Made by a program: the position numbers and the translations under genes. 64,000 nt of DNA from Rhizobium ecuadorense (GTDB taxonomy: Bacteria > Pseudomonadota > Alphaproteobacteria > Rhizobiales > Rhizobiaceae): positions 1 to 64,000 of the forward strand of contig NZ_LFIO01001790.1 of NCBI RefSeq assembly GCF_001187535.1, read 5' to 3'. The stretch's first letter is position 1. Each line of letters opens with the position of its first letter. Shown here piece after piece: positions 19,041 to 41,882 of the stretch. Below the pieces are notes generated by a model. The model had not been told where the DNA came from, did no database searches, and saw nothing but the letters and a program-made list of their open reading frames with translations.

Positions 19041-19311
19041 GGACGAAGCAAGGGGATTGAACTGCACCATTTTTTCCGGCAATTGAGGTGATCAAGATTT
19101 GGCTCTGCCCTCCGTCGCTGGTGGGATCGAGCCCGGTGATGAAACTTAATTTGGCTGATCCGCAGAAAAAAATATCAAACACCAGCGCCTCGCAGTGGCC
19201 CGTGCCATTGCTTGCGGCTTTGAGCAATTTTTGACAATCGGCGATTGTGCGCATGAGGTGCTTGTACGGCCACAAGCGCCTCCTCTCCATTCGGTGATAC
19301 GGGATGAACTC

Positions 19312-20394
19312 ATGAATTTAAACGTCAAACGGCTTTTGTTTTTCTGCGTATTGCCATTGGCCGCTTTTTGTCTTGTTGTCGGATGGATTTATAGTGGAGC
19401 ACCGGGGTTTCCCGCACCCAGCTTGAAGCGGATAGCTGTCGCTCCTTGGCAACCGCGCGACTCGGCTGGAGAACTCGTGTATCACGACAAGCTTTGGCTC
19501 CTAGGTGGCTGGAAAACAAAGCCGACAGAGTTGCTTAGGGATGTCTGGAACTCAACGGATGGCGTCAAGTGGGATCTAGTCCAGCCGGAGCTACCCTTCC
19601 ATTATACCGACTTGCCAATGACGATCGTGTTCAAGGATCGAATATGGGTAATGGGTGGGACCACACTCTCGGATCCAGATCATCCTGCCACCAATTCCGT
19701 GTGGAACTCCGATGACGGGATTCACTGGAACAACGTGCAAGCAACGGCTTCATGGAGCCCAAGAACAGCTACGCCAATTGTGATGCTAAATGGCAAGCTG
19801 TGGATTCTCGGGGGGCTTGAGTGGGTTGATGGCAAGCAGACCCTTAAGAACGACGTGTGGAACTCCAGCGATGGTATCAATTGGACTAAAGTGACAGAGC
19901 ACGCGGCATGGCAGCCACGCGCGTATCACGCAGCGGTCGCTTATCACGGAAAACTGTGGGTTCTTGGCGGCGGATCATATCATCCAGACTACATCGCCTT
20001 GAACGACGTTTGGAACTCTGAAGATGGTATCAATTGGAAAAAAGTATCCAATGCGCCGTGGAGCGGACGGATCTGGTTCTCGGCGTCAGAGTACCAAGAC
20101 CGCATGTGGGTGATTGGTGGCTGGAGCAAAGACACGCTCAACGTCGGCGGAATTTGGTTCACGGACAACGGCATTGATTGGAGGCGATTGCCAGTATCTG
20201 ACAGCTGGCGACCAAGGCATGAACAATCGGCTTATGTTGTGGGCGATAAGATGATCATCGCTGCTGGGCATGCCGACCCAATCACAAATGAGGTGTGGGA
20301 GCTGAGAGTTCCTCCGCTATGGCTGGAGTTCGATCGCCTCGTCCATCAGGTGCTGCCTCTCGTGAACGGGCGAACGGATGGCAGGGCAGACTAG
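19312..20394 (+). CDS. kelch-like beta-propeller protein with N-terminal membrane anchor
   Basis: Encodes 360 residues from the ATG at 19312 (GGGATGA upstream). The N-terminus has one hydrophobic helix (LLFFCVLPLAAFCLVVGW, residues 8-25), acting as an anchor or uncleaved signal. The rest is built of about five kelch-type blades of 50-60 residues, each with a VWNSxDGxxW strand and a paired hydrophobic LWxLGG or MWVIGG strand. Such propellers bind proteins or glycans; some (NanM, galactose oxidase) are enzymes, but no catalytic residues are assignable. It is the first gene of the AT-richer polysaccharide region. Its role there is unknown. Confidence 0.8.
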   Translation: MNLNVKRLLFFCVLPLAAFCLVVGWIYSGAPGFPAPSLKRIAVAPWQPRDSAGELVYHDKLWLLGGWKTKPTELLRDVWNSTDGVKWDLVQPELPFHYTDLPMTIVFKDRIWVMGGTTLSDPDHPATNSVWNSDDGIHWNNVQATASWSPRTATPIVMLNGKLWILGGLEWVDGKQTLKNDVWNSSDGINWTKVTEHAAWQPRAYHAAVAYHGKLWVLGGGSYHPDYIALNDVWNSEDGINWKKVSNAPWSGRIWFSASEYQDRMWVIGGWSKDTLNVGGIWFTDNGIDWRRLPVSDSWRPRHEQSAYVVGDKMIIAAGHADPITNEVWELRVPPLWLEFDRLVHQVLPLVNGRTDGRAD

Positions 20395-22485: not shown

Positions 22486-22653
22486 ATGAGAAGTCTTCCA
22501 AAAAAAATCATTGCTGGCCATACCGGTATAGTGGGTTCGACCGTTGAACGACGCTTGATCGCGGAAGAGTGTCCGGCTAGCTCAGGGGATGTCAATGTGA
22601 ACCGCCAAATGATTTTGGGCGGCGGATACTGTCGCGCGGGGAGAAGCTCTTGA
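22486..22653 (+). pseudogene. decayed N-terminal fragment of a GDP-L-fucose synthase (fcl) gene
   Basis: A short frame reads LPKKIIAGHTGIVGSTVERR, then LIAEEC, and later DVNVNRQMIL. It lines up with the start of the intact fcl product encoded at 40932 (LPNKKIWVAGHRGMVGSALV, RRLQSEDC, EVDLKRQ, IILAAAKVGG), keeping the GHxGxVGS nucleotide-binding loop. About 15 residues appear deleted and the frame then ends, so it cannot make an enzyme. The surrounding 374-base gap (22276-22649) holds nothing else recognisable. It is probably a remnant of recombination or gene replacement within the polysaccharide locus. Confidence 0.65.
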
Positions 22654-23714
22654 TAAAATTCGCTATTGTTGGGTGCGGACGCATTGCTAAAAGACATTCC
22701 GAACTGTTGGGCTTGTCACAGATAAACGGGGCGTCGCTAGTCGCAGTTTGTGACGTGGTGGAGGAAAGGGCAAAGGAGTTCGGAGAAAGGTTCGGCGTTC
22801 CTCACTATCAGTCCATCGACGAAATGCTCCAGAACACGGACGCCGACGTCGTATCGATATTGACGCCAAGTGGCATGCATGCAGAGCACGTCATAACTGC
22901 TGCAAAATACAAACGGCACATCGTGGTTGAAAAGCCAATGGCGCTGACTTTGACCGACGCTGAAGCGATGATCAAGGCGTGTGATGACAACAACATTCGC
23001 CTTTTTGTCGTCAAACAAAACCGGTTTAACGTCCCGGTCCTGAAAGCGCGCGAAGCTCTTGATGCGGGCCGCTTCGGTAAGCTTGTGCTCGGGACGGTCA
23101 GGGTACGATGGTGCCGCGATCAGAGTTACTATGATCAGGATAACTGGCGCGGCACCTGGCAATATGACGGCGGTGTCCTTGCCAATCAGGCAAGTCATCA
23201 TATCGACATGTTAACTTGGTTCATGGGTGATGTCGAAAGTGTTCACGCGCGGGCGGCGACAGCGTTGGTGGATATCGAGGCGGAAGACACTGCCGTAGCC
23301 ACACTGAAGTTCCGCAACGGTGCTCTCGGCATTATAGAAGCCACCGCAGCAACGCGACCCAAGGACATTGAAGGATCGATTTCGATACTTGGAGCTGGGG
23401 GCTCTGTTGAGATTGCGGGCTTTGCGGTGAACAAGATCCGCACCTGGCAGTTCGGCGACCATGACTTAGGCGATGAGCAAGTTATGGAGAAGTACTCTGT
23501 TAATCCTCCGAACGTTTATGGTTTTGGTCATCAGGCTTATTACGAACATGTCGTCGATTGCCTAGTGAACGATACAAAAGCCATCGTTGATGGTCATGAG
23601 GGGCGCCAGAGTCTTGAGCTGATCTCCGCGCTTTACGAATCAATCGCTTCCAATCAGGAAGTGAAATTGCCTTTGGAAGTGAAACATTCGAAACTGGGAC
23701 GATCTTCGCAGTGA
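22650..23714 (+). CDS. wbpB: Gfo/Idh/MocA oxidoreductase, WbpB/WlbA-like UDP-GlcNAcA 3-dehydrogenase
   Basis: A 354-residue NAD(P)-dependent oxidoreductase starting with TTG behind GGGGAGAA. It has the Rossmann loop IVGCGRIAKRH, the catalytic-lysine motif VVEKPMALT (near residue 92) and the substrate-domain signature VVKQNRFNVPV, followed by GTWQYDGGVLANQASHHIDM with the expected histidine. WbpB/WlbA oxidise the C3 hydroxyl of UDP-N-acetylglucosaminuronic acid, the first committed step to UDP-2,3-diacetamido-2,3-dideoxy-glucuronic acid. The next two genes encode the matching acetyltransferase and aminotransferase, which supports this substrate. Confidence 0.88.
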   Translation: MIKFAIVGCGRIAKRHSELLGLSQINGASLVAVCDVVEERAKEFGERFGVPHYQSIDEMLQNTDADVVSILTPSGMHAEHVITAAKYKRHIVVEKPMALTLTDAEAMIKACDDNNIRLFVVKQNRFNVPVLKAREALDAGRFGKLVLGTVRVRWCRDQSYYDQDNWRGTWQYDGGVLANQASHHIDMLTWFMGDVESVHARAATALVDIEAEDTAVATLKFRNGALGIIEATAATRPKDIEGSISILGAGGSVEIAGFAVNKIRTWQFGDHDLGDEQVMEKYSVNPPNVYGFGHQAYYEHVVDCLVNDTKAIVDGHEGRQSLELISALYESIASNQEVKLPLEVKHSKLGRSSQ

Positions 23715-24196
23715 CCGACGGCTCCCCCACGCTCTGGAAGGCGCAGGTCAGAGACGTCGTTTGCGGCGCTCGGGTGAAAATCGTTGAGCCCGCCAATGTC
23801 TATGAATGCGAACTTGCGGATGATTGTTTCGTCGGTCCGTTCGTCGAAATCCAGAAGGGCGTGAAGATCGGGCCGCGCACAAAGATACAGTCACACAGTT
23901 TCATATGCGAACTTGTGGAGATTGGTGAGGATTGTTTCATCGGACATGGGGTTGTTTTTGTGAACGACCTTTTTTCGGGAGGTGGACCTGCGCGGGGAAA
24001 CCGCGCGCTCTGGAAGGAGACCCGGATCGGCAACCGAGTTTCGATCGGCTCAAACGCTACGGTCCTGGCAGTTCGGATATGCGACGATGTTGTCATCGGC
24101 GCAGGCGCGGTTGTAACCCGGGATATCACCGTTTCTGGCACCTATGCCGGCAACCCCGCCCGGCCTTTAACTCGTTCGGCAAGGAATGAGGTTTAG
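23711..24196 (+). CDS. wbpD: WbpD/WlbB-like sugar-nucleotide N-acetyltransferase
   Basis: A 161-residue left-handed beta-helix acetyltransferase. The GTG start overlaps the wbpB stop by 4 bases. Hexapeptide repeats run through ADDCFVGPFVEIQKGVKIG, TKIQSHSFICELVEIG and RIGNRVSIGSNATVL, ending with IGAGAVVTRDITVSGTYAG and NPARPL. WbpD N-acetylates the 3-amino group of UDP-GlcNAc(3NH2)A using acetyl-CoA, after the WbpE transamination. The 222 bases before wbpE contain a CCCCTT/AAGGGG hairpin near 24271-24290 but no recognised gene. Confidence 0.87.
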   Translation: MTDGSPTLWKAQVRDVVCGARVKIVEPANVYECELADDCFVGPFVEIQKGVKIGPRTKIQSHSFICELVEIGEDCFIGHGVVFVNDLFSGGGPARGNRALWKETRIGNRVSIGSNATVLAVRICDDVVIGAGAVVTRDITVSGTYAGNPARPLTRSARNEV

Positions 24197-24418
24197 GTTT
24201 GTCCCGGGAAGGTCGTCGTTGGAGGACAACGTCGGTACATGCCCCAGGCTTTGCAGCTTCTCGCCGTCAGCCCCCCTTGGGAAGGGGTGTTGGCCTTAGC
24301 CTTTCGCGAAGGGTTGTTCAGCGTTGAGCCGATGCTTGGCTGAATTTCATTTTTAGTTGGCGCATATGGCGGCGCCGGCGCATACGGAAATCATCGCAAT
24401 TTACCGAGAGCAGGTTTC

Positions 24419-25522
24419 ATGAAAGTTCCTTTCGCCGATCTTCATCTCCAATATCTCTCGCTAAAGGAGGAGATCGATGCTGCAATTGCTTCGGTCATCC
24501 GCTCTTCCTCGTTTATCAGGGGGCCATTCGTCCAGAAGTTCGAGGACGAATTTGCCGCCGCCGTCGGCGCCCCTTATTGCATCTCATGTGCGAATGGAAC
24601 GGATTCGCTCTTCATCGCCATGCGCGCGCTAGGCGTCAAACCCGGGGATGAAGTTATTACGACTGCCCATTCGTGGATTTCAACTACCGAGACCATTTCA
24701 CAGGCCGGCGGCAATGTTGTCTTCTGCGACACCGACGCTTCGACATACACCATCGATCCTGTTCAAATCGAAGCGAAGATCACGCCTAGAACGGTTGGCA
24801 TCATCCCGGTTCATCTCTATGGCCAACCGGCCGATATGACTGCGATCATGGCTATCGCCCGGAAGCACGGTCTCTGGGTCATAGAGGATTGTGCCCAATC
24901 CCATCTGGCTGAGGTTGATGGGCAGGTCGTCGGGAGTTTCGGGGATGTCGCTTCCTATTCTTTCTACCCGGGAAAGAACCTTGGCGCGATGGGCGACGCA
25001 GGCGCCATTACCTGCAAGGACAAATCACTTGCTGATCGGATGGCAATGTTTGCGCGGCATGGCGGACTTTCAAAGGGCGACCACCAGATCGAAGGCATAA
25101 ATAGCCGCCTCGACGGACTGCAGGCCGCGATCCTGTCGGTGAAGCTGCCGCGTCTGCCTGAATGGACTGCAAAGCGGCAGGAATGGGCGAGACGCTATGT
25201 GCGCGCCCTCGAAGATATTGGTGGGCTGGAACTGCCTGAAACGGCAGCCGGGCGAAATCACGTCTATCACCTGTTTGTGATCAAGCACGAGCGGCGCGAT
25301 GCCCTGGCCGCCCACCTCAATCATGCCGGCATCCAAACCGTGGTCAACTATCCGATATCGCTGCCGTTCCTGCCGGCTTACGAACGCCTTGGGCATCGGC
25401 TGGAAGATTTTCCCAACGCGTTTGGAAATCAATCCAGGATTCTTTCAATTCCGATTTTCCCTGAAATGACAGAAGCTCAACTCCTGTACGTCGCAGATAT
25501 GATCAGGGGCTTCGCCGAGTGA
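24419..25522 (+). CDS. wbpE: DegT/DnrJ/EryC1 aminotransferase, WbpE-like
   Basis: A 367-residue PLP-dependent sugar aminotransferase of normal length. The PLP lysine is Lys186 in SFYPGKNLGAMGDAG; the PLP-binding aspartate lies in VIEDCAQSH and the substrate region starts MKVPFADLHLQY, as in WbpE/WlbC. It would transfer an amino group from glutamate to the 3-keto sugar made by WbpB. It overlaps the wzx start by 4 bases. Unlike its neighbours it is separated from wbpD by a 222-base gap, so it may have an additional promoter. Confidence 0.9.
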   Translation: MKVPFADLHLQYLSLKEEIDAAIASVIRSSSFIRGPFVQKFEDEFAAAVGAPYCISCANGTDSLFIAMRALGVKPGDEVITTAHSWISTTETISQAGGNVVFCDTDASTYTIDPVQIEAKITPRTVGIIPVHLYGQPADMTAIMAIARKHGLWVIEDCAQSHLAEVDGQVVGSFGDVASYSFYPGKNLGAMGDAGAITCKDKSLADRMAMFARHGGLSKGDHQIEGINSRLDGLQAAILSVKLPRLPEWTAKRQEWARRYVRALEDIGGLELPETAAGRNHVYHLFVIKHERRDALAAHLNHAGIQTVVNYPISLPFLPAYERLGHRLEDFPNAFGNQSRILSIPIFPEMTEAQLLYVADMIRGFAE

Positions 25523-27114
25523 GTGACGAACGCCCGGAGAGCCATGGAAGGCGCAGCAATCTTCTTGGAAACTCAGGCTGGAATTTTGCGGGTTTCCTTT
25601 TTACGCTGATTGCTAATCTTGCCACGGTGCCGTTCGTCGTGCGCTGGATTGGACTGCAGGCACTGGGAAGCGCAGGCATAGTGATCGCTATCGCAGCTCC
25701 CGTGACGCTGATCGGCACGGTGCTCGGGCAGGCCGTTGTCAGGGAAATTTCCGCGCGGATTGGACGTGGCGAGGAGCATGCCGCCGCCCGTATTGCTATC
25801 GTCGGATTGAAAATCTGCCTGATCGCTTCGGCGGTGGCTTGGCTAGGGATCGTGCTTGCCGGTCCATGGATCATGACCGGCATCGCCGGTGCGTCTCTTC
25901 CATTACAGAATCTCACCGTCTCCTTCCTCATTGTCGCAACCGGCATCGTGGCGCAGCAGTTCTCGTTTGTCCTGCAAGGTATTTGCGTGGGAAAGCAAAA
26001 TTTTCGATTGGTGGCCAAAGCATCAGCGTGGAGTTCATTCGCAACCATCATCGTGACCTTGGGATGCACGTGGTCCTTTCCAGTGCTGAATGGCTATTTG
26101 CTCGGATTTGCTGGAAGTCTTGTATTCTCGACTGCAGGATGGATATGGGTTACATCCTCGGAATTCCGTGAGAGCGGCAGATTGATCTCGTCGTCTCCCG
26201 ACGAACTGAAATCATTGCTTCATTTTGGAAAATGGCAAAGCCTCTCTCAGCTTGCCGGAATCTTTGGCAACCAGATTGACCGCTACGTTCTGGCTTCGCT
26301 CGCGCCGTCTGCCGTTGTCGGCCAATATAACGTGTGCAATCGCCTCCAGGAGGCCGCTTACATCGCGGTCATACGTATTTGTGAAGTCCTGTTTCCTCGA
26401 TTTGGCAACATGTCGAACAGCCGCGAAGAGGAGCGGCATGATTTCTTCATGCTCGCTTCATGGGGCAATTCGGCTTTCGGAGCCATCGTACTCTCGCCAA
26501 TCGCGGTTCTCTCTAGGCCGCTGTTGACGGTTTGGGTCGGCGAAGAAACCGCTGCAGGCGGCACGCATCTGCTCCAGATACTCATTCTCGGCGGCATCGT
26601 CGGGTGCGGTTCGAATGTATTCCAGTATTACGCCATGGGAATGGGCAGAAACGCGCCGGCCGCATATACTTCGCTTGCGTATTCGGTGATGACTGTTGTT
26701 TTTTCTTTCGTTTCCATTTGGTTTTACGGTCCCTACGCTGCTGGAGCAGGTTTGCTTGCTGCCAGCCTTGTAAGAGTACCTCTGGCGCTTTTGGTGACAC
26801 GCAATTGCTTCTTTCGCACTTTCAGCGCGGAGCAAATGTTTGCCTGTACAGTTGCTCCTATCTTGGTTGGCATCTGCATTGTTGTCGGATCTCTGGGCCT
26901 GAATTTCACCTGGATCAATGGCTGGCTGTCCCTCGCTCTCGCGTATGTCTGTTCTGTCTGCGTTGTCTCCGCCGCGATCGCAGGCGTGGCGATGACGACG
27001 AAAACCGGGAGCATTATCTTGTCCCGTATCTATGGGTCCGTTAGAACGGCTTTGTCCGAGAGACGCCTGATTGGATGGAATAACCATCTTGTGAAACGCA
27101 AGAGAGGGTTTTGA
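25519..27114 (+). CDS. wzx: Wzx-type polysaccharide flippase
   Basis: A 531-residue polytopic protein of the MOP/PST family with about 12-14 helices, starting with GTG overlapping wbpE. The N-terminal NSGWNFAGFLFTLIANLATV with VVRWIGLQALGSAGIVIA resembles Wzx/oligosaccharide flippases. It would move undecaprenyl-diphosphate-linked repeat units across the inner membrane for polymerisation by Wzy. Its stop abuts the GTG start of the glutaminase gene. Confidence 0.88.
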   Translation: MSDERPESHGRRSNLLGNSGWNFAGFLFTLIANLATVPFVVRWIGLQALGSAGIVIAIAAPVTLIGTVLGQAVVREISARIGRGEEHAAARIAIVGLKICLIASAVAWLGIVLAGPWIMTGIAGASLPLQNLTVSFLIVATGIVAQQFSFVLQGICVGKQNFRLVAKASAWSSFATIIVTLGCTWSFPVLNGYLLGFAGSLVFSTAGWIWVTSSEFRESGRLISSSPDELKSLLHFGKWQSLSQLAGIFGNQIDRYVLASLAPSAVVGQYNVCNRLQEAAYIAVIRICEVLFPRFGNMSNSREEERHDFFMLASWGNSAFGAIVLSPIAVLSRPLLTVWVGEETAAGGTHLLQILILGGIVGCGSNVFQYYAMGMGRNAPAAYTSLAYSVMTVVFSFVSIWFYGPYAAGAGLLAASLVRVPLALLVTRNCFFRTFSAEQMFACTVAPILVGICIVVGSLGLNFTWINGWLSLALAYVCSVCVVSAAIAGVAMTTKTGSIILSRIYGSVRTALSERRLIGWNNHLVKRKRGF

Positions 27115-27726
27115 GTGATCACTGTGGTAGACTATGGCGTCGGGAATATCGGCGCAATTACCAATATGGCGGAGTATCTGGGGATCGATGCTCGGCCAAG
27201 CGGTGATCCCAAGGAGATCGAAAGTGCCGCGAAGCTCATTCTTCCAGGGGTCGGTGCGTTTGACAAAGCAATGGCCACGTTGAGAAACAGAAAATTAGTC
27301 GATCCACTGAATCACGCAGTGCGCGAACGGAGGGTTCCTGTTCTCGGCATATGTCTCGGTATGCAGTTGTTGGCGCGATCCAGCGAGGAAGGCTCGGAAC
27401 CGGGACTCGGCTGGATAAATGCGGATGTGAAGCGCATCAGGCTGCCGGCAACATCATCCCTTAAAGTTCCTCATATCGGCTGGCTTGAGATAAGGCCGCG
27501 CCGAGAAAGCGCTCTGTTCGACAGGTCCAACCGGAGGGAGCGCTTTTATTTCGACCACAGCTATTTTGTCGATTGCGATGATCCGAATGACGTTACCGCC
27601 GTCATCGACTACGGCGAGGAGCTATGTTGCGCAATGAGTTCGAACAATGTCAGCGGCGTACAATTTCATCCTGAAAAAAGCCACCGCTTCGGGATGCGGG
27701 TTCTTGAAGCATTCGGAAAGCTTTGA
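27115..27726 (+). CDS. hisH: HisH-like glutamine amidotransferase subunit of the sugar amidination system
   Basis: A 203-residue class I glutaminase starting with GTG (MITVVDYGVGNIGAI). The nucleophilic Cys in LGICLGMQLL and the His/Glu pair in GVQFHPEKSHRFG are intact, so ammonia production from glutamine is expected. Sequence alone resembles the imidazole glycerol phosphate synthase subunit HisH. Its place between wzx and a WbpG-like gene, with no other his genes, matches the HisH2/HisF2 duplicates of Pseudomonas aeruginosa O5, which supply ammonia for forming an acetamidino group on a diacetamido uronic acid. It overlaps hisF by 4 bases. Confidence 0.88.
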   Translation: MITVVDYGVGNIGAITNMAEYLGIDARPSGDPKEIESAAKLILPGVGAFDKAMATLRNRKLVDPLNHAVRERRVPVLGICLGMQLLARSSEEGSEPGLGWINADVKRIRLPATSSLKVPHIGWLEIRPRRESALFDRSNRRERFYFDHSYFVDCDDPNDVTAVIDYGEELCCAMSSNNVSGVQFHPEKSHRFGMRVLEAFGKL

Positions 27727-28481
27727 TGAGAAAAAGGCTTATACCCGTCCTGCTGGTCGATCAGAAGCGTCGGCTGGTGAAAACGATAGAGTTTGGTGAG
27801 CGCACCTACGTCGGCGATCCCTTCAATGTTGTGCGCCTGTTCAACGAAAAGGAAGTCGACGAGATCTGCATTCTCGATATCGACGCCACGCGTACGGGGC
27901 GAGGTCCTGACCTCGGCTTCGTTCGCGAACTCGCAACCGAATGTTTCATGCCTTTGGCATATGGCGGCGGCATCACCGAGCTTAAGCAGTGCGAGGAACT
28001 TAACCGCTCTGGCGTCGAGAAGTTTGTACTCGGTCAAGGCGCGCGCAATTCGCAACTGGTGGGAGCGATCGCTGCCGATATGGGCAGCCAGGCTCTGGTT
28101 GCCTGTGTCGACGTTGACGGTCGCGGTGCGGCGGCGAGCTGCTACGCTTCAAGTGGTGTGAGGCAAGAGCCGATAGAATTCTGCCTGAGGCTGCAGGATG
28201 CCGGTGTTGGCGAAATAATTCTTCAGTCGAAAACTCTCGACGGCACGCGCAACGGGTATGATCTTGAGTTGATCCAGTCGATTAGCCGACAGCTGAGCAT
28301 TCCGGTCGTTGCCTTGGGTGGCGCCGGAAACGTCGCCCACCTGGAGGAAGGCCTTCATGCTGGCGCTTCCGCCGCGGCCTCGGGGAGCGCCTTCACCTTT
28401 ATCGGTCGGCTAAGGGCAGTCCTCATAAGCTACCCTGCACCAGAAATTTTGGAGGAGGCGGAGCAAGGTGCTCATGGATAA
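27723..28481 (+). CDS. hisF: HisF-like cyclase subunit of the sugar amidination system
   Basis: A 252-residue (beta/alpha)8 barrel starting MRKRLIPVLLVDQKRRLVKT. It retains CILDIDATRTG, AYGGGITELKQCEEL and ALGGAGNVAHLEEGL, with phosphate-binding loops typical of HisF. The classical second catalytic aspartate region (LNSMDRDG in housekeeping HisF) reads LQSKTLDGTRNGYDL here: the aspartate-glycine is kept, but the motif is altered. This fits HisF2-type paralogues that channel ammonia rather than make histidine. It overlaps the WbpG-like gene by 14 bases. Confidence 0.87.
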   Translation: MMRKRLIPVLLVDQKRRLVKTIEFGERTYVGDPFNVVRLFNEKEVDEICILDIDATRTGRGPDLGFVRELATECFMPLAYGGGITELKQCEELNRSGVEKFVLGQGARNSQLVGAIAADMGSQALVACVDVDGRGAAASCYASSGVRQEPIEFCLRLQDAGVGEIILQSKTLDGTRNGYDLELIQSISRQLSIPVVALGGAGNVAHLEEGLHAGASAAASGSAFTFIGRLRAVLISYPAPEILEEAEQGAHG

Positions 28482-29634
28482 CGCGTCGCGAGTTTGCTCA
28501 TTTTGCGCCATGGACAATTCCAACCCGTCGATCGTGTTTGACGCAAACGGCCAATGTAACTGCTGTCGGGATGCGCTGAATCGCAAACCGCACGAGTGGT
28601 GGACTGGCCCGGAAGGCGATATTCGAATGCGGCGATTGATCGCCACATTGAAGGAAGAAGGCGCAGGTAAGCCATACGATGCGATGGTCGGGCTTAGCGG
28701 TGGAATTGACAGCGCGTTTCTTGCGCATCTCGCCGCCCGAAAGCATGGTCTTCGTCTTCTGGCGGTCCATGTTGACGGCGGTTGGAATTCCGAGCCCGCC
28801 GTCCACAATATTGAAATTCTTGTCCGAAAACTCGATCTCGACCTTCACACCTATGTAATCGAGTGGCAGGAGATGCGCGATCTGCAGATCGCGTTTATGA
28901 AGGCTTCTGTCCTCAATCAGGACATCCCGCAAGATCATGCATTCTTTTCCACCCTCTATAGGACAGCAGCTAAATTCGGCATTCGTCACTTCCTCAGCGG
29001 CGTAAACTTCGCGTCAGAATCGGTGATACCCCGCGGCTTTGGCTATCCCTCGATTGACGGAACGCATGCGAGCGCGATTCAAAAACGCTTCGGCTCCTTG
29101 AAGCTCACGACCTACCCCTTCATGAGCCCTCTTGAGTATATTTGGCTTACCCGCGTCCGCCGGCAACTCACCATTCACCGTCCGCTCAACTACATCGACT
29201 ACAATAAGGAAGAGGCGCGCACTGAGCTTCAGCGCGAATATGGGTGGCGTGACTACGGTGGCAAACACAGTGAATCCAGATTCACAAAATTCTATCAGGA
29301 TATCTATCTTCCGAAAAAATTTAACTTTGACAAAAGACGGCTTCACCTTTCAAGTTTGATTGTTGCTGGACAAATGACACGGGAGGAGGCGCTGCGCGAA
29401 ATTTCAAAGCCCATCATCTCCGTTCAGGATGCCCGCAGGGAAACAAAGTTCGTGGCCAAAAAACTGGGATTGAAGCCGGAAGAGCTCCAATCGTATATCG
29501 AGGCACCGCCAGTACCGCACAGCAATTATCCGAACGGCATGTGGCTTCATAAAGCGCTTTTGCGCCTGCGTAACATGACACGGACACTCCTGCCGACACG
29601 TAACGCAGCCGCAGAGGCAGCAGATGTCGACTAG
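28468..29634 (+). CDS. wbpG: WbpG-like N-acetyl sugar amidotransferase
   Basis: A 388-residue PP-loop (adenine nucleotide alpha-hydrolase) enzyme; GTG at 28468 or ATG at 28474 starts it, behind GGAGGAGG. The N-terminal cysteines (CSFCAMDN and QCNCC) look like a metal-binding knuckle. The ATP-pyrophosphatase loop VGLSGGIDSAFLAHLA is at about residue 73, and LAVHVDGGWNSEPAV follows. WbpG/PseA-type enzymes adenylate an acetamido oxygen and, with ammonia from HisH/HisF, convert it to an acetamidino group. All three partners are adjacent here. It overlaps the wzy gene by 11 bases. Confidence 0.9.
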   Translation: MLMDNASRVCSFCAMDNSNPSIVFDANGQCNCCRDALNRKPHEWWTGPEGDIRMRRLIATLKEEGAGKPYDAMVGLSGGIDSAFLAHLAARKHGLRLLAVHVDGGWNSEPAVHNIEILVRKLDLDLHTYVIEWQEMRDLQIAFMKASVLNQDIPQDHAFFSTLYRTAAKFGIRHFLSGVNFASESVIPRGFGYPSIDGTHASAIQKRFGSLKLTTYPFMSPLEYIWLTRVRRQLTIHRPLNYIDYNKEEARTELQREYGWRDYGGKHSESRFTKFYQDIYLPKKFNFDKRRLHLSSLIVAGQMTREEALREISKPIISVQDARRETKFVAKKLGLKPEELQSYIEAPPVPHSNYPNGMWLHKALLRLRNMTRTLLPTRNAAAEAADVD

Positions 29635-30982
29635 CCTCGTCTTTGCCATGGCTGTTACATGGTCGGTGGCGTTCTACATCTGGAGGGTGGGGATCAATCT
29701 GACGCTTTCGTCAGTTTTTTTAGGTCTCATGCTCGCGCTTCATGGGCCCATGTATCTCTATTACACTCGAATATGGGGTATACAGACTAAGTTTTTTGAG
29801 ACAATTTTGTCTTCTGCTCCTTATACCGATGCTATCGGCGCACTGGATCTCTCCCTTGCCCTTTCATTTGTTTGCATCACTATCGGCATAGCAGGAGCGG
29901 ATTTCGCGTTCGGTGTTAACCATCAACAGATCCAGGCGGCACTGCATTCCTGGCGCACTCAGCCTGTCCGGATAGCCAGTGGTGTCGCTCAACGACTCAA
30001 AATAATCTCGGCCATCGGCTTCTTTATCATTCTCGCCTTTATTATTGTCGAAAACAAAATCCCCCAAATTATTGTCTACTTCATTTCCGACGCAAGCGAA
30101 GTCGCGAAGATTGCGATGCGGCGCGAGTCGGGTGGAAGCCGCTTTTATCTCTTCAATCTCCTGGTCTCCAACCTATTTCCCTTCTCTGCTTTTTGCTGTT
30201 TTATAGCTTTAAGACAGCGGTCAATGAAACTGCCAGCGATCGCGTGGGCTTTTATCGTTGCCGTCATGGTGGCCAAGGCCTCGACTTTGAGCAAGGCGCC
30301 ATTGGCGATATTTGTACTGCAGTTGATAGTCGTGGAACATCTTCGAAAATCTTTGGATCTGCCATTGGGGATGGCGATTAGGTTTATTTCGTTTTGTGTT
30401 CTTTTGTTTGGTGCGATGGTACTTGTTGCCATTCGTGAATTGCATGGTGTCGGCGACGCGCTCGATTTTCTATTTTATCGTGTATTCATGATCGCAAACG
30501 AAAGTTTGCTTGAGTATTATGCCGCAATTCCAAGTGTTCTCCCCTATGGTTGGGGTAGTAAGTTCAGTTGGCTGGTAGGCTCTCTGACCGGTCAACCCAG
30601 TCAACCTACCTATGTACTGGTCGGCGCCGTCCATCGCGGCATGGAGGGTTCCACCTCGACAGCGATGTTTATCGCCGATGCCTGGGCCGACTTCTCTTGG
30701 GTGGGTGTGTTTCTATTTTCGCTATTCGCCGGATTTTTTATCCGCTTGCTGGATATCCAGCTAATAGTGAAACGAGGGAAGACCGTCGCAACGATTGCGG
30801 GGCTGGCTCTCGGCCACTATGGAATATTCGTGATGCTTTCGACCGCACTTCAAACTGCGATGATGACCGGCGGTTTGTTTTTGATTGTTCCATTAGTGCT
30901 GGCGCTGTCCAGCTCGCTGAAATGGGTGCCAGATAAGAACGACGGTGGACAAGAGCATCTTGTCCAGCTCGGACGGGTATAG
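29624..30982 (+). CDS. wzy: Wzy-like O-antigen polymerase
   Basis: A 452-residue membrane protein with about 10-12 helices and a large periplasmic loop near residues 290-350 (VLPYGWGSKFSWLVGSLTG and TSTAMFIADAWADF). The EGSTSTAMFIADAWADFSW pattern followed by a helix is common in OAG_pol/Wzy proteins. It is expected to polymerise lipid-linked repeat units in the periplasm. Wzy sequences diverge strongly, so the call rests on topology plus position between wzx/wbpG and the glycosyltransferases. Base composition is clearly more AT-rich than the core genome. Confidence 0.78.
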   Translation: MSTSLVFAMAVTWSVAFYIWRVGINLTLSSVFLGLMLALHGPMYLYYTRIWGIQTKFFETILSSAPYTDAIGALDLSLALSFVCITIGIAGADFAFGVNHQQIQAALHSWRTQPVRIASGVAQRLKIISAIGFFIILAFIIVENKIPQIIVYFISDASEVAKIAMRRESGGSRFYLFNLLVSNLFPFSAFCCFIALRQRSMKLPAIAWAFIVAVMVAKASTLSKAPLAIFVLQLIVVEHLRKSLDLPLGMAIRFISFCVLLFGAMVLVAIRELHGVGDALDFLFYRVFMIANESLLEYYAAIPSVLPYGWGSKFSWLVGSLTGQPSQPTYVLVGAVHRGMEGSTSTAMFIADAWADFSWVGVFLFSLFAGFFIRLLDIQLIVKRGKTVATIAGLALGHYGIFVMLSTALQTAMMTGGLFLIVPLVLALSSSLKWVPDKNDGGQEHLVQLGRV

Positions 30983-30990
30983 AATCCAAT

Positions 30991-32082
30991 ATGCGCGTTT
31001 TTCAAAATTCCGGGGTATATGCTGCTTATATGCGGCGGCTTGATATACTCGCAGTTGATGCGAGAAGTTTTTCAGACAGATTGTCTCATTTTCTGGATGA
31101 TCGCTATGGCGCTTGCCACATACTGAACCCGGTGATGGAGGCCTCTCCAGATACCTTCTTTACGAACGGCGATGACGAGATACTTCAACGATACTGGGCG
31201 GTAGAAAACGGTTTGCCCGCCACCTCCGACATGGAGCAGATCTTGCTGAGCCAGATCGAACATCACCGCACCGAGATATTTTATAATTCGGATCCGATGC
31301 GATACGGGAACGATTTCGTCCGCAAACTTCCTGGCTGCGTGCGGAAGTCAATCATGTGGCGAGCGGCGCCTTCCGGCAATACCGACTTCGGCGCCTACGA
31401 TTTGATCGTCTGCAACTTTCCTACCATATTGGAAGGTTATCGGAAGCTTGGCTGGCGCGCGGAATATTTTGCACCAGCCCATGATCCGGCAATGGATAGC
31501 TATGCCGAAAATCGAGACCGGCCAATCGATGTGCTTTTTGTCGGAGGCTATAGCCGTCACCATCGTCGGCGTGCAGAGATACTGCAAGCCGTGTCGGCTA
31601 TTCGAAGGGATTTTAAAGTTCGTTACCATCTTGATCGGTCGCGATTGACTAGGCTTGCTGAGAGCCCGATTGGCTGGCTTCTGCCGCTTGGGAAGCACAG
31701 ACGTCCGAAGAATATTCGCGCAGTGTCCCGTACCCCTCTTTTCGGACGCGAGCTTTATGAAGCGATTTCGCAGGCGAAAATTGTTCTAAACGGCGCCGTG
31801 GATATGGCGGGAACGGACAGGGGAAATATGCGATGCTGGGAGGCGCTAGGATGCGGTGCGCTAATGGTCTCGGACTCCGGTGTTTATCCCGAGGGGATGG
31901 TCAATAATATCAGCATGGTAACATATGAAGATGCGGAATCCGCGGCGCGGACAATTGTAAATCTGCTTCGGGAACCGGGGCGCCTCCAGGCGTTAGCCAA
32001 CGAGGGAACCCGTACTGTGCGAACCGTGTACAACAAGCGTGCCCAATGGCTCAACTTCCAGCGGCTGGCTGCAAGCGCATGA
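30991..32082 (+). CDS. CgeB-like glycosyltransferase
   Basis: A 363-residue GT-B-like protein starting [18 protein letters not shown]. The C-terminal half carries the CgeB/YkvP-type signature: [51 protein letters not shown], and an [11 protein letters not shown] end. The conserved glutamate in [10 protein letters not shown] is the nucleotide-sugar contact in this family. The donor and linkage are unknown. The stop overlaps the acyltransferase start by 4 bases, tying it into one operon with the next four genes. Confidence 0.82.
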
Positions 32083-32672
32083 AGCTTAGCCTGACCACGA
32101 TCGCAAACATGGCGGCGGGATGGTTGGCCCGCAAGCGGAGCAAATTTCTCGTCGGGAGTGGTAGCAATGTCCGTTGGCTGGCGTTGCGATCCATTCGCGG
32201 AGGCAATGTGAAGGTCGGCGAGAACTGTATCATCAATTGCAATATCAGCTTCGATGATCCCCGCGGCCGCATCAGCATTGGTGATCGCTGCTATATTGGT
32301 GCCAGTCACCTGGTATGCCATTCCGGAATTACGATTGGAAACGATGTCATCATCTCATGGGGAGTGACAATCGTCGATCATGATTCTCATTCTCTCGACT
32401 GGGAATTGCGCAAGAGCGATGTGACCGATTGGGGCTTGGGAAGGAAGGATTGGACGGGGGTTTCCATCAAGCCGGTGTTTATTCAGGAGAAGGTGTGGAT
32501 TGGTTTTGGCGTGAGTGTCCTGAAGGGGGTGACAGTCGGCGAAGGGGCAGTTATTGGAGCCCATGCTGTTGTCACGCGCGATGTCCCCCCTTACACCGTC
32601 GTCGCCGGTAACCCCGCTCGCATAATTCGGAATCTCAAGCGGACGCAAAAAGAGACAGAAGGTCAACCATGA
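32079..32672 (+). CDS. hexapeptide-repeat O-acetyltransferase (WcaF/maltose acetyltransferase type)
   Basis: Encodes 197 residues from the ATG at 32079, which overlaps the upstream stop (ATGA); an in-frame ATG at 32046 would lie inside the previous gene. Left-handed beta-helix repeats are seen in [36 protein letters not shown] and [19 protein letters not shown], with the catalytic-type histidine in [10 protein letters not shown]. The C-terminus [20 protein letters not shown], followed by AGNPARI, is diagnostic of LbetaH acetyltransferases. It probably acetylates a sugar of the repeat unit. Confidence 0.87.
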
Positions 32673-33511
32673 CGGCAACAAAGTTGGACACGTGGGAAGC
32701 AGCCGTCCAGTGGCTTCGGCAACAGCCTGACCAGCAAAAGCTGGTGCTCGATGCCTACTACGACGATCCGATTCTGCAGGCGGCCGAGCGGTATTGGCGG
32801 AGCGGCGAGTGGGGTGCCATTCGCGAATTTCTCCCGCAGGCGCCAGGAACTGCAGTCGATATCGGCGCCGGTCGTGGTATTGCCAGCTATGCTCTGGCAA
32901 AGGAAGGTTTTGAAGTAACGGCACTGGAGCCCGACGCGAGCGACCTCGTGGGTGCTGGTGCAATTCGTGCCCTTTTCAATGAAGTTCATCTTCCCATTTC
33001 GATCGCCGAGGAGTTTTCCGAAAAGCTCCCATTCTCCGACAATGCCTTCGATGTGGTCTTTGCCAGAGCCGTTCTGCATCACACCTCCGATCTGTCGGCC
33101 GCGTGCCGCGAATTCTTTCGAGTGCTCAAGCCCGGCGGGCGCTTCATCGCAGTTCGCGAACATGTGATATCGAGCGAACGCGATTTGCCGATCTTTCTGG
33201 ATCGCCATCCCCTGCACAAACTCTATGGAGGGGAAAACGCCTTTCTTCTGAAGGAGTATCAGAACTCTATTGTTTCGGCCGGTTTCACGATGGACAAGCT
33301 CCTTATGCCGCTGGAGAGCGAGATCAACTTCGCCCCCTACACTCGGGCGGAGTTGAAGGCGCAGATTGCCAAGCGATTGCCGCTCTTCGCAAGAGCCGTT
33401 CCAGCGCTTTTGAATTCTCGGTCGGTCTGGACGATCTTCTCGCATATCGCAGCAAAGTTCGATCGGCGGCCGGGCCGGCTATATTCGTTCGTCGCCACGC
33501 GACCCCAATAA
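32669..33511 (+). CDS. class I SAM-dependent methyltransferase
   Basis: A 280-residue protein coupled to the previous gene by a 4-base overlap. Methyltransferase motif I is [16 protein letters not shown] (about residue 69), followed by the acidic VTALEPDAS that binds the SAM ribose and by [19 protein letters not shown], as in the Methyltransf_11/UbiE group. The position among glycosyltransferases suggests O-methylation of a sugar, but a target cannot be named from sequence. Confidence 0.87.
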
Positions 33512-33520
33512 AGAAAAAGA

Positions 33521-34471
33521 ATGGCTCGTATACTCATCACAGGTGCTCACGGATTTATCGGAAGATATCTGGCAAAGTCGCTTGCACTTGCCGGGAACTC
33601 CGTTTTCGGCCTTGGGCACGGTACCTGGTCACCACTTCACGCCCAGCGCTGGGGGCTAGTCTCTTGGCATAACGGCGAGGTCGATATCCCCAATCTCCGG
33701 TTGATTCAACAGCAGTTTGGGACGGTGGACATTGTGTACCATCTTGCGGGGGGCTCGTCGGTCGGAGCAGCAATCGCAAATCCTCGCGAAGATTTCCACC
33801 GCACGGTCAGCTCGAGCATTGAACTGCTTGAATGGATGAGACTGGAGGCCCCTAAAAGCAGCTTAGTGGCGGTTTCTAGTGCTGCTGTTTACGGGGCAGG
33901 GCACACAGGTCAGATAGCTGAAACGGCGAAACCCAACCCCTTCTCTCCCTACGGTCATCACAAGCATATAATGGAATCTCTCTGCATCTCCTATTGCGAG
34001 AGTTACGAGTTAAAGGTCGTGATCGGTCGTCTGTTTTCAGTTTATGGGGAGGGATTACGCAAGCAATTGCTCTGGGACGTTTGCTCCCAGCTCGAGGTTC
34101 ATCCTGAGCGACTCCTTCTCGGTGGCAGTGGCAACGAGCTTAGAGACTGGACGGCGGTGACCGACGTCGCGCGCGCGCTGTCGCTTATCCACACCGAGGC
34201 GAGCCCCTCGCCAAAAGTTATCAATATCGGCACCGGCCGCGGCACCAATGTTCGTGCGATCGTTGAAGGTATTGCCCAAGCATGGGCGGTCGATACCAAT
34301 TTGGAAGCCAGGATTGAATTTTCGGGTAAAGCAAGAGCTGGCGACCCTCAAAGCCTGATAGCCCAGTCCGAGCAGCTCGCAGCCCTCGGGTTCGAGTGGC
34401 AAAAGGATTTGATGGAAGGCCTCTCAGGCTATGTCAGGTGGTTTCGATCGGAATCCGGTGTGAGATCATGA
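33521..34471 (+). CDS. extended SDR NAD-dependent sugar epimerase/dehydratase
   Basis: A 316-residue Rossmann enzyme. The NAD-binding loop is ITGAHGFIGRYLA (residue 6 on), the VYHLAGGSSVG loop follows, and the catalytic set is Ser-Ser in AVSSAAVYG with YGHHKHIME as the YxxxK motif (about residue 147). It resembles NDP-sugar 4-epimerases or reductases, so it likely makes or interconverts a sugar for the repeat unit; the substrate is unclear. It overlaps the following GT4 gene by 4 bases. Confidence 0.85.
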   Translation: MARILITGAHGFIGRYLAKSLALAGNSVFGLGHGTWSPLHAQRWGLVSWHNGEVDIPNLRLIQQQFGTVDIVYHLAGGSSVGAAIANPREDFHRTVSSSIELLEWMRLEAPKSSLVAVSSAAVYGAGHTGQIAETAKPNPFSPYGHHKHIMESLCISYCESYELKVVIGRLFSVYGEGLRKQLLWDVCSQLEVHPERLLLGGSGNELRDWTAVTDVARALSLIHTEASPSPKVINIGTGRGTNVRAIVEGIAQAWAVDTNLEARIEFSGKARAGDPQSLIAQSEQLAALGFEWQKDLMEGLSGYVRWFRSESGVRS

Positions 34472-35640
34472 CCCGTATTGCCTTTACGATGATCGGCGGG
34501 AAAAACTGGACCGGCGGTTATAACTATCTGATAAATCTCGCCAGGCTGCTGTCCGCTGATCAGAGCAGAGCTCTTACGCCGGTTATGTTCTTTGGAACCG
34601 ACGTCGATGAAGAAGATATAACTCCATTTGCGGCTCTCAATTGCGTTGAGGTGGTCCGTAGCCCGCTCTTTAACAGATCCAGGAGCTTTAGATCTCTGCT
34701 CACCGGTCTTGTCACCGGCGCCGACTGGCGTGTGCGTAAGCTGTTTAGAACTCACCGGATAGATGTCGTGTTTGAGGTGGCACAATTTTTTGGTTTCAAT
34801 CTCGGCATCCCCGCTATTGCCTGGATCCCAGATTTCCAGCACCGCTTCCTCCCCCATCTCTTCAGTAAGCTTGGCTACTGGAAACGCGATATAGGGTTTA
34901 GAATTCAGGTCCTGGGAAAACGCGAGATCATGTTGAGCAGTGAAGACTCGCGCGTCTCGTGCGAAGTTTTCTATCCGTCCTCCCGGGGGCGCACACACGT
35001 CGTCAGGTTTGCGGTGCCGCCCAAGGTAGTGATTGTTCCTGCGGCTGCTCGTGCTCTTGCCGACAAATATGGACTGCCTGAGCGATATATCTTCCTTCCC
35101 AACCAGTTCTGGCAGCACAAGAACCATCTTCTTGTCGTGGAGGCATTGACGATCCTCCGCCGCCGCGGTCAAGACGTTACTATCGTAGCATGTGGCAGCC
35201 AGTCTGATCCGCGCGACCCCTCTTATTTTCCGCGTGTGAAGGCTGCTATCGACGGTTCCGGTCTCTCCTCAAACTTCATTCTTCTCGGTCTTATCCCATA
35301 TGGCGATCTTGCTCCACTCGCAACCGCTAGTATGGCCTTGCTGAATCCATCTCTCTTCGAAGGATGGAGCACGACGGTCGAAGAGGCCCTGTCGTGGGGC
35401 GTGCCGTTGATTTTGTCGGATTTGGACGTCAACAGGGAACAGGCGGGCGAAGTGGCCGTATTTTTCGACCGCCATGACGCGCAGGCGCTTGCAGACGCAC
35501 TTGCTTCGGCAAATCTGTCTTCGCCGGATATTCTGTTCGAACGGGCGGCGAAGGCACAGGCCATCGCGAATGAACGCGTCGACCGCTTCATCACTGATTT
35601 CCATGCGCTTGTTCAACGGGCTGCCACCGAACGCCGGTAG
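34468..35640 (+). CDS. GT4-family glycosyltransferase
   Basis: Encodes 390 residues from the ATG at 34468 (ATGA overlap with the epimerase stop). It is a GT-B protein with a donor-binding C-terminal half: RYIFLPNQFWQHKNHLLVVEAL (the start of the glycosyl-transferase 1 domain, near residue 207), ILLGLIPYGDLAPLATAS and LFEGWSTTVEEALSWG with the conserved EX7E-type glutamates. It ends the run of overlapping genes; the GT2 gene starts 62 bases later. The acceptor and donor are unknown. Confidence 0.88.
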   Translation: MTRIAFTMIGGKNWTGGYNYLINLARLLSADQSRALTPVMFFGTDVDEEDITPFAALNCVEVVRSPLFNRSRSFRSLLTGLVTGADWRVRKLFRTHRIDVVFEVAQFFGFNLGIPAIAWIPDFQHRFLPHLFSKLGYWKRDIGFRIQVLGKREIMLSSEDSRVSCEVFYPSSRGRTHVVRFAVPPKVVIVPAAARALADKYGLPERYIFLPNQFWQHKNHLLVVEALTILRRRGQDVTIVACGSQSDPRDPSYFPRVKAAIDGSGLSSNFILLGLIPYGDLAPLATASMALLNPSLFEGWSTTVEEALSWGVPLILSDLDVNREQAGEVAVFFDRHDAQALADALASANLSSPDILFERAAKAQAIANERVDRFITDFHALVQRAATERR

Positions 35641-35702: not shown

Positions 35703-36479
35703 ATGCGCGAACCGAAAATTTCAATCATCACCGTTGTCTTCAATAACGAAGCCACGATTGCTGATACGATCGAATCCGTTCGCGCTCAAAACTATCCGAA
35801 TATGGAGTATATCGTCGTCGACGGACTCTCAAAGGACCGCACGCTTGATCGGATCAACGAACGCCGCGATGTTATCACGCGCCTGGTTTCCGAAGAGGAC
35901 TTCGGCATCTATGATGCTATGAATAAAGGAATAAGTCTTGCGACCGGCGATGTTATCGGCTTCATCAATGGAGACGACTTCTACATGCCGGGCGCTGTGG
36001 CAAAGGTCGCGGAGGCGTTCCGGGATCCGGCCTTGGACGCATGTTACGGGGATCTCTGCTATGTTCGGCAAGACGATACCTCAAAGATCGTGCGCGACTG
36101 GCGCTCTTCGCCTTTTGTACCTCGGGCTTTCGAAGAAGGCTGGTGCCCGCCTCATCCGACCTTCTTTGTTCGGCGCGAGGTCTACAAGCGCCTTGGGTCA
36201 TTTGACCTCCGTTATGGGATTGCTGCTGATGTAGAATTAATGATGCGCTTTCTGGAACGCCACCGTATCAAGTCGAAATACCTGCCCGGCATTATGGTGA
36301 AGATGCGAATGGGCGGCACGACAAATCGCAGCTGGAAGAATATCCTGCAGCAAAACAAAGAAATTCTACTTGCGCTTGAAACTCACGGGTTGAGAGCCAG
36401 CCCAGTACATTTCTTCTCTAAGAAGCTTGTATCGCGGGGCATGCAGGTACTTCGTGCGGCCTTGCTCAGGGTGCGCTAA
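35703..36479 (+). CDS. GT2-family glycosyltransferase
   Basis: A 258-residue GT-A enzyme of the WcaA/WcaE type. The nucleotide-binding start ISIITVVFNNEATIADTIES, the VDGLSKDRT segment and the metal-binding motif IGFINGDDFYMPGA (DD near residue 90) are present, followed by GWCPPHPTFFVRREVY, typical of colanic-acid-like GT2 enzymes. It is last in the rightward gene set. Only 4 bases separate its stop from that of the convergent Wzz-like gene. Confidence 0.9.
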   Translation: MREPKISIITVVFNNEATIADTIESVRAQNYPNMEYIVVDGLSKDRTLDRINERRDVITRLVSEEDFGIYDAMNKGISLATGDVIGFINGDDFYMPGAVAKVAEAFRDPALDACYGDLCYVRQDDTSKIVRDWRSSPFVPRAFEEGWCPPHPTFFVRREVYKRLGSFDLRYGIAADVELMMRFLERHRIKSKYLPGIMVKMRMGGTTNRSWKNILQQNKEILLALETHGLRASPVHFFSKKLVSRGMQVLRAALLRVR

Positions 36480-39869: not shown

Positions 39870-40931
39870 ATGACAAAAACCGCGCTGATTACTGGGGTGA
39901 CTGGTCAGGATGGTGCCTATCTGGCCGAATTGCTTCTGAGCAAGGGCTATACGGTGCACGGTATCAAGCGGCGGTCCTCGTCTTTTAATACCGGCCGCAT
40001 CGAACACATCTATCAGGATCCGCATGAGACACATCCTCGCTTCATTCTCCACTATGGCGATATGATCGACTCGACCAACCTGTTGCGGATCGTGCAGCAG
40101 ACGCAGCCTGACGAAATCTATAATCTTGCCGCACAAAGCCATGTGGGTGTCAGCTTCGAAACGCCTGAATATACGGCGGATGCCGATGGCGTCGGGACGT
40201 TGAGGTTGCTCGAAGCGATCCGTATCCTGGGGCTGCAGGAAAAGACTCGGTTCTACCAGGCATCGACCTCGGAGCTCTACGGTCTTGTGCAGGAAGTGCC
40301 GCAGAGCGAAAAAACGCCGTTTTATCCGCGTTCTCCCTATGCGGCAGCCAAGCTCTATGCCTATTGGATCGTCGTGAATTATCGCGAGGCCTATGGCATG
40401 CACGCATCCAACGGCATTCTTTTCAATCACGAAAGCCCGCTTCGTGGCGAAACCTTCGTCACTCGCAAGATCACGATGGCAGTGGCTGCCATCCATCTGG
40501 GTCGGCAGGATAAGCTTTTCCTCGGCAATCTCGACGCCAAGCGTGACTGGGGCCACGCGCGTGAATATGTCGAAGGCATGTGGCGCATGCTGCAGCAGGA
40601 CACGCCGGATGACTACGTCTTGGCGACGGGTGAGACCACGAGCGTCCGCCAGTTTGTCGAGTGGGCTTTTGCCGACGTGGGCATTGCATTGGAATGGAAG
40701 GGGTCCGGCGTCGACGAAAAGGGTTATGACTCCGCGTCCGGTGCGTGCCTCGTCGAAGTCGATCCTCGTTATTTCCGCCCGACGGAAGTTGACCTTCTGC
40801 TGGGTGATCCGACCAAGGCACGCCAGAAGCTGGGCTGGCAGCACAAGACCCCCGTTCGTGAACTCGCCGCCGAAATGGTGCGCGAGGATGTCAAGCACTG
40901 GAAGGCTCTAACCGGCCGGAAAGAGATCTGA
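39870..40931 (+). CDS. gmd: GDP-mannose 4,6-dehydratase
   Basis: A 353-residue enzyme converting GDP-D-mannose to GDP-4-keto-6-deoxy-D-mannose. The NADP-binding loop is [19 protein letters not shown], the family motif [16 protein letters not shown] follows, and the catalytic residues are in [10 protein letters not shown] and [15 protein letters not shown] (YxxxK). The C-terminal [20 protein letters not shown] is typical of Gmd. fcl begins at the base after its stop, so the two form an operon for GDP-L-fucose, a sugar reported in rhizobial O-antigens and Nod factors. Confidence 0.97.
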
Positions 40932-41882
40932 GTGTACGATTTGCCCAACAAGAAGATCTGGGTTGCCGGTCATCGCGGTATGGTCGGCAGTGCTCTTGTG
41001 CGCCGGCTTCAATCCGAAGACTGCAACGTCATCACGGCCACGCGCCGTGAGGTCGACTTGAAGCGGCAGGACGAGGTCGAGAAATTTGTTGAAGCAAACC
41101 GACCCGACGCGATCATTCTCGCCGCTGCCAAGGTTGGCGGTATCCTCGCCAATGACAGCTACCCCGCAGAATTCATCTACGACAATCTGATTATCGAAGC
41201 GAATATCTTCGAAGCTGCCCATCGGGGCGGAGTGGAACGGCTGCTGTTCCTGGGGTCGAGCTGCATTTATCCCAAGCTCGCCCCGCAGCCGATTCCCGAA
41301 GAAGCTCTGTTGACCGGTGAGCTCGAGCCGACCAACGAATGGTACGCGATAGCCAAGATCGCCGGTATCAAGCTCGCGGAAGCCTATCGTAAGCAATATG
41401 GTCGCGATTATATTTCGGCCATGCCGACCAATCTTTATGGCCCGGGCGATAATTTCGACCTGAATACCAGCCACGTGCTGCCGGCGCTTATCCGCAAGGC
41501 GCACGCTGCGAAACTTCGCAAAGACCCGCACATGGTGGTCTGGGGCACGGGAACCCCGCGCCGCGAGTTTCTGCACGTCGACGACTGCGCCGACGCTCTG
41601 GTGTTTCTTCTCAAGACATATTCGGGCTCGCAGCACGTCAATGTCGGCTCGGGGACAGATCTCGAAATTATCGAATTGACGCGTTTGGTCTGCCGCGTTG
41701 TCGGTTACGAGGGGGAGATCATTCATGATCTTTCCAAGCCCGACGGCACGCCGCGCAAGTTGATGAGCAATCAGAAACTGCAGGACATGGGCTGGAAGCC
41801 GCGCATCTCGCTCGAGGATGGCATTGCAGCCACTTACGCCTGGTTTCTGGAATTCGAAAATACATCCGACCCGGCGGTCTGA
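40932..41882 (+). CDS. fcl: GDP-L-fucose synthase
   Basis: A 316-residue SDR epimerase/reductase starting with GTG (MYDLPNKKIWVAGHRGMVG), immediately after the gmd stop. It converts GDP-4-keto-6-deoxy-mannose to GDP-L-fucose with NADPH. Signatures are AGHRGMVGSALVRRL, LFLGSSCIYPKLAPQPIPE, and the catalytic EWYAIAKIAGIKLAEAY (YxxxK), followed by MPTNLYGPGDNFD. A truncated relative lies at 22486, suggesting a past duplication or exchange. Confidence 0.97.
   Translation: MYDLPNKKIWVAGHRGMVGSALVRRLQSEDCNVITATRREVDLKRQDEVEKFVEANRPDAIILAAAKVGGILANDSYPAEFIYDNLIIEANIFEAAHRGGVERLLFLGSSCIYPKLAPQPIPEEALLTGELEPTNEWYAIAKIAGIKLAEAYRKQYGRDYISAMPTNLYGPGDNFDLNTSHVLPALIRKAHAAKLRKDPHMVVWGTGTPRREFLHVDDCADALVFLLKTYSGSQHVNVGSGTDLEIIELTRLVCRVVGYEGEIIHDLSKPDGTPRKLMSNQKLQDMGWKPRISLEDGIAATYAWFLEFENTSDPAV

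Follow-up and report, generated by a model that had tools for sequence, protein, structure and literature searches.

Introduction

Several described polysaccharide systems resemble the Rhizobium locus analysed here. In Pseudomonas aeruginosa, a five-enzyme pathway (WbpA, B, E, D and I) starts from uridine diphosphate (UDP)-N-acetylglucosamine (UDP-GlcNAc) and ends with a 2-epimerase (PMC10622841). The 3-acetimidoylamino-3-deoxy sugar rhizoaminuronic acid was reported from Rhizobium leguminosarum 3841 in 2008, going by the title of that study (Forsberg and Carlson, cited in PMC4881576). The O-polysaccharide of Shewanella japonica KMM 3601, compared by composition, contains 3-acetamido-3-deoxy-beta-D-glucopyranuronic acid (beta-D-GlcpA3NAc), a residue that lacks the amidine and would correspond to the sugar proposed below in its non-amidinated form (PMC3210612). 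By its gene table, cluster B of Sphingomonas sp. LM7, which serves a cell-associated polysaccharide, holds a nucleotide-sugar dehydrogenase, an aminotransferase, an acetyltransferase, an MviM dehydrogenase, WbuX, HisF2 and HisH, all hit by transposons that alter colony morphology; it differs in making another polysaccharide and in having an extra exosortase-associated amidotransferase (PMC11340318). Here, we analyse a cassette of seven genes (22650-29634, + strand) of Rhizobium ecuadorense, located in the first 64,000 nucleotides of contig NZ_LFIO01001790.1 (the window). We consider it highly likely, judging from gene content and order, that the O-antigen precursor produced by this cassette is UDP-rhizoaminuronic acid (UDP-3-acetimidoylamino-3-deoxy-D-glucuronic acid), as in strain 3841.

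Results

The match to the chemically defined strain 3841 is the strongest evidence for this proposal, above the phylogenetic trees. From wbpB to the last glycosyltransferase gene, which ends at position 36479, the 14 genes are all colinear with the O-antigen cluster of R. johnstonii (leguminosarum) 3841 (approximately RL0811-RL0826), at 86-98% identity; the amidination genes hisH2, hisF2 and wbpG are intact, with 97-98% identity. The WbpM-like dehydratase of the window is 94% identical to that of 3841 and, together with the methyltransferase, the hexapeptide acetyltransferase, the short-chain dehydrogenase/reductase-type enzyme, gmd and fcl, agrees with the other published sugars of 3841. The 2008 structure study reportedly also describes fucose and 2-O-acetylation, and notes that the residue carries no 2-amino group. 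A difference concerns gmd and fcl, which 3841 carries upstream of wbpB and the window downstream of the block, and which are only 65% (gmd) and 54% (fcl) identical between the two; this indicates that the GDP-fucose genes (GDP, guanosine diphosphate) have been swapped or relocated separately from the other genes. The genome of the window contains one match to TIGR03573 (WbuX/WbpG), and so does 3841, where it is located in the corresponding block; there is thus only one candidate catalyst of that family for the amidine of 3841.

The product is therefore very probably the known rhizoaminuronic acid and not a new sugar. A first annotation made from the letters of the window (the sequence-only reading) had proposed an acetamidino-uronic acid that it did not know as a described rhizobial O-antigen sugar. 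The sugar class agrees with our analysis, but the supposed novelty has to be given up, considering the title of the 2008 report on 3841 (cited in PMC4881576).

Among named genomes, WbpG was found at 97-99% identity in R. johnstonii 3841, R. lentis, R. phaseoli ATCC 14482 and Rhizobium sp. WYCCWR10014. Of 148 genomes of the genus, 18 have WbpG matches: besides the window, five genomes reach 97-99% (one of them, G300, corresponding to 3841 in position) and three reach 80-81% and share the gene order of the block (L074-L076); the remaining matches are 39-46% identical and lie in different loci, apart from three that are short or weak. One relative, G424 (locus L083, 9384-14075), has kept wbpB, wbpD and wbpE (83-87% identity), wzx and wzy, but hisF2 is gone, hisH2 and wbpG survive only as fragments, and two short scars are visible. 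Its gene content indicates that amidination has been lost naturally in this lineage, and G424 should make the acetamido form.

Other variants were seen in the genus. G384 (L077, 7642-19310) carries the full canonical WbpA-B-D-E set with a WbpI-type 2-epimerase, HisH2, HisF2 and two WbpG genes; this locus is the better Rhizobium candidate for the 2,3-diacetamido amidino sugar that the sequence-only reading had envisaged. In five genomes (L078-L082), WbpB and WbpD are 68-70% and WbpE 50% identical to those of the window, and they are accompanied by two HisH/HisF pairs, a WbpG of about 40% identity and an FnlC-kind epimerase. These loci probably specify a different polysaccharide that uses the same 3-amino sugar. 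The WbpG homologue of another genome (L067, G425) contains one in-frame TGA and may be broken or mis-sequenced.

The strain may share its precursor sugar with 3841 and nevertheless build a different O-antigen, with another linkage or with partial or no amidination; we regard this as unlikely. Wzy is the most diverged gene of the block (87% identity to 3841, compared with 94-98% for most others), so the linkage may differ. The displacement and low identity of gmd and fcl, as well as the lost amidination genes of G424, point in the same direction. Against this stands the intact, highly conserved hisH2-hisF2-wbpG set.

The three genes at the start of the cassette would build the amino sugar. The first (22650-23714; Pfam and NCBIfam matches; 96% identity to 3841) encodes a WbpB/WlbA-like sugar 3-dehydrogenase of the Gfo/Idh/MocA family, proposed to act on UDP-glucuronic acid (UDP-GlcA). 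Its top solved relatives are 3q2k (E value 3e-95) and 3q2i (4e-90), with the next structure at 5e-29; both are presumably WlbA, their own entries being labelled only as oxidoreductase or dehydrogenase. The second gene (23711-24196) encodes a short left-handed beta-helix acetyltransferase with hexapeptide repeats (WbpD-like), a putative N-acetyltransferase of UDP-3-amino-3-deoxy-GlcA, which weakly matches 3mqg, annotated as a lipopolysaccharide (LPS) acetyltransferase (E value 6e-12, 33% identity). The third (24419-25522; DegT_DnrJ_EryC1, 369 bits) encodes a WbpE-like aminotransferase of the DegT family, proposed to use 3-keto-UDP-GlcA; it matches P. aeruginosa WbpE with an E value of 2e-78 and 43.6% identity, and three other DegT chains score better.

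In maximum-likelihood trees, these proteins separate from the canonical Wbp enzymes. The acetyltransferase falls in a clade of 31 rows (support 100/100) containing no WbpA- or WbpI-linked row, and 3mqg in a separate clade of 11 rows (100/100) that is the home of WbpA-linked loci. Similarly, the aminotransferase belongs to a clade of 28 rows (100/98) and WbpE to a different one of 8 rows (100/99); in all these clades the rows are mutually related and do not count as independent events. The WbpB tree shows a separation too, but its deep support is weaker, it has long branches (L027, L117), and its deep forks were not relied on. Within the examined stretch of each locus, neither WbpA nor WbpI lies near any of the 26 comparable B-D-E triads, in a set of loci gathered via WbpG or WbpB and hence biased towards carrying them; with the canonical acetyltransferase type, WbpA or WbpI is found nearby in six of nine loci (G384 counted once). 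In L152, the dehydrogenase gene directly upstream of the triad encodes a protein matching UDP-glucose 6-dehydrogenase at 6e-142, compared with 1e-43 for the nearest UDP-N-acetylmannosaminuronic acid (UDP-ManNAcA) type, which points to UDP-GlcA as the substrate.

The sequence-only reading had favoured the P. aeruginosa O5 model, in which WbpA, B, E, D (and I), with HisH2, HisF2 and WbpG, convert UDP-GlcNAc into a 2,3-diacetamido (acetamidino) uronic acid. We find this model improbable. The Pseudomonas route to UDP-2,3-diacetamido-2,3-dideoxy-mannuronic acid (UDP-ManNAc3NAcA) does resemble the cassette, in that its C3 dehydrogenase and aminotransferase are homologous, its acetyltransferase shares the fold and the amidination module is common to both, the whole module set being known from P. 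aeruginosa (PMC10622841). WbpB of the window is nearest to 3q2k and 3q2i among solved structures, with 44.5% identity to 3q2k. Moreover, an unlinked WbpA-like gene on contig C1304 of the same genome, whose best solved relative is a UDP-ManNAcA dehydrogenase, could supply UDP-N-acetylglucosaminuronic acid (UDP-GlcNAcA). Relatives of the acetyltransferase also stand alone in Klebsiella, Rahnella and conjugative plasmids of Salmonella/Escherichia, with no sugar genes around them in the three regions inspected. These observations, together with the possible change of linkage, weigh against our proposal.

Nevertheless, the locus contains no WbpA UDP-GlcNAc 6-dehydrogenase, and the WbpD- and WbpE-like proteins lie outside the WbpD and WbpE clades. 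As a sign of a 2,3-diacetamido pathway, the C1304 gene is weakened by its distribution: it has matches in all 148 genomes of the genus, in about 100 of them at 84% identity or more, and most of these genomes lack the cassette. The UDP-GlcNAc 2-epimerase family PF02350, to which WbpI belongs, has no match in the genome of the window or in 3841, and 11 of 14 controls match. Such an absence would be expected if the product is a gluco sugar lacking the 2-amino group, but a gluco-configured 2,3-diamino sugar would need no WbpI either, so the absent epimerase alone is not decisive. Finally, the sugar published for the syntenic strain 3841, as named in the title of its description, has nitrogen at C3 only. 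The cassette that had been called complete is complete only for a route starting at UDP-GlcA and incomplete for the Pseudomonas pathway, which needs WbpA and WbpI, neither of which it contains.

We initially considered the acetyltransferase clade as proof of the substrate. This argument was dropped once the stand-alone members were found, along with an Azospirillum relative that adjoins neuB and not a WbpB. Judged by its position in the tree, the clade rules out orthology with WbpD but does not establish the substrate. Separately, we observed that some 350 plasmids, for example the Salmonella Milwaukee plasmid pIncFII.1 (L171, 7995-8447), carry a stand-alone beta-helix acyltransferase with 51-62% identity to the product of 23711-24196; most of them are conjugative plasmids from Escherichia (298) or Salmonella.

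Downstream of the Wzx-type O-unit flippase (25519-27114; Polysacc_synt) lies the amidination module. HisH2 (27115-27726), the glutaminase subunit, has the GICLGMQ nucleophile loop and an HPEKS motif, and scores 213 bits with the HisH model. The HisF2-like barrel (27723-28481), here called HisF2 and probably ammonia-channelling, has AglZ/HisF2 (NF038364) as its best NCBIfam model, at 292 bits for a cut-off of 310, and reaches 147 bits with ordinary HisF. In an alignment with the housekeeping HisF, the catalytic aspartate of PCLDVKDG, which we take to be Asp11 in HisF numbering, is a leucine in the PVLLVDQKR of the window protein. WbpG/WbuX (28468-29634) is a PP-loop N-acetyl sugar amidotransferase with an SGGIDS motif (TIGR03573, 250 bits, cut-off 203).

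The sequence-only reading had allowed that HisH and HisF would serve histidine synthesis if no housekeeping copies existed elsewhere; we give this virtually no credence, because, although HisH2 exceeds the cut-off of the imidazole glycerol phosphate synthase HisH model, a housekeeping set is present on contig C1060 (hisF and hisA, with hisH just upstream, the two HisH proteins being 33% identical), HisF2 lacks Asp11 and scores higher with AglZ/HisF2 than with HisF, and an amidotransferase partner is adjacent.

In the pathway that we propose, a housekeeping UDP-glucose 6-dehydrogenase, for which the genome of the window has genes (L007, L008), would supply UDP-GlcA. The WbpB-like enzyme would oxidize it at C3, the WbpE-like enzyme would aminate C3, and the beta-helix acetyltransferase would N-acetylate the resulting 3-amino group. 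HisH2 would then free ammonia from glutamine and HisF2 would channel it to WbpG, which would activate the oxygen of the 3-acetamido group with ATP and replace it by nitrogen, giving an acetamidine. The residue would be incorporated in the O-unit, flipped by Wzx and polymerized by Wzy. We infer both the substrate of each enzyme and the occurrence of amidination at the UDP-sugar level. The end result would be a single sugar bearing a carboxylate and an amidinium, in line with the zwitterionic charge anticipated by the sequence-only reading.

The open reading frames of the cassette, all found by profile and structure-database comparisons at the positions and on the strand of that first annotation, overlap or abut, with the sole exception of a 222-base gap between the acetyltransferase and aminotransferase genes. 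The rest of the block continues on the same strand with the Wzy O-antigen polymerase (29624-30982; TIGR04370, 40.6 bits, at the cut-off) and a glycosyltransferase (30991-32082; Glyco_trans_1_2). A hexapeptide O-acetyltransferase (32046-32672; best NCBIfam model WbbJ, under the cut-off; 94% identity to 3841) is a candidate for O-acetylation of deoxytalose. It is followed by an S-adenosylmethionine-dependent methyltransferase (32669-33511; Methyltransf_11; 98%) and a short-chain dehydrogenase/reductase-type epimerase/reductase (33521-34471; Epimerase, 163 bits; 98%); the published sugar suggests the former as a candidate 3-O-methylase of 6-deoxytalose, and the latter may be a reductase forming GDP-6-deoxytalose. 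Two further glycosyltransferases, of the GT4 (34396-35640; Glycos_transf_1) and GT2 types (35703-36479; Glycos_transf_2), complete the block. Beyond it lie the WbpM/WreV-like nucleotide-sugar 4,6-dehydratase on the - strand (37530-39524; Polysacc_synt_2, 410 bits), assigned to the quinovosamine part, and, on the + strand, gmd, encoding GDP-mannose 4,6-dehydratase (39870-40931; TIGR01472, 618 bits), and fcl, encoding GDP-L-fucose synthase (40932-41882; NF047922, 538 bits), both over their cut-offs.

The cassette block is embedded in a region extending from approximately 19 to 41 kb of the window, with a guanine-plus-cytosine (GC) content of 0.50-0.58, compared with about 0.60-0.65 on both flanks. 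A Kelch-repeat beta-propeller protein (19195-20394) borders this low-GC island and has a relative of 38-43% identity within a distant cassette locus (L016, 12277-13058).

Discussion

What is new here is the assignment of genes to the sugar, their separation from the canonical Wbp branch, and the loss of amidination in one lineage. In the literature searched, we found no paper assigning these genes to rhizoaminuronic acid, the 2008 structure paper being represented in this comparison by its title. Our analysis gives a sugar whose chemistry was described in 2008 both a locus and a pathway that can be tested. It also cautions that cassettes of this kind should not be annotated as 2,3-diacetamido pathways.

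In a broader perspective, one can propose, as an evenly balanced possibility, that 3-amino-3-deoxyglucuronic acids are made from UDP-GlcA by a separate Wbp branch spread across Pseudomonadota and Bacteroidota, in which amidination is optional. The Rhizobium cassette would then be a member of this branch with a chemically known product, and G424 a member that has lost amidination, its residue changing from zwitterionic to acidic. The natural variants with and without the amidotransferase offer material for testing the importance of the positive charge.

The sugar may also matter in the interaction with plants. In a transposon study of strain 3841, six enzymes of the LPS cluster (RL0813, RL0815, RL0818, RL0822, gmd RL0825 and fcl RL0826) were essential for root colonization (PMC11103875). 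The gene order in the 3841-type locus L014 is fcl, gmd, wbpB, wbpD, wbpE, wzx, hisH2, hisF2 and wbpG. Counting from gmd, RL0822 would be wbpE and RL0818 would be wbpG, if the locus tags run without gaps. Should these two assignments be correct, the amidino sugar would be tied to root colonization by strain 3841.

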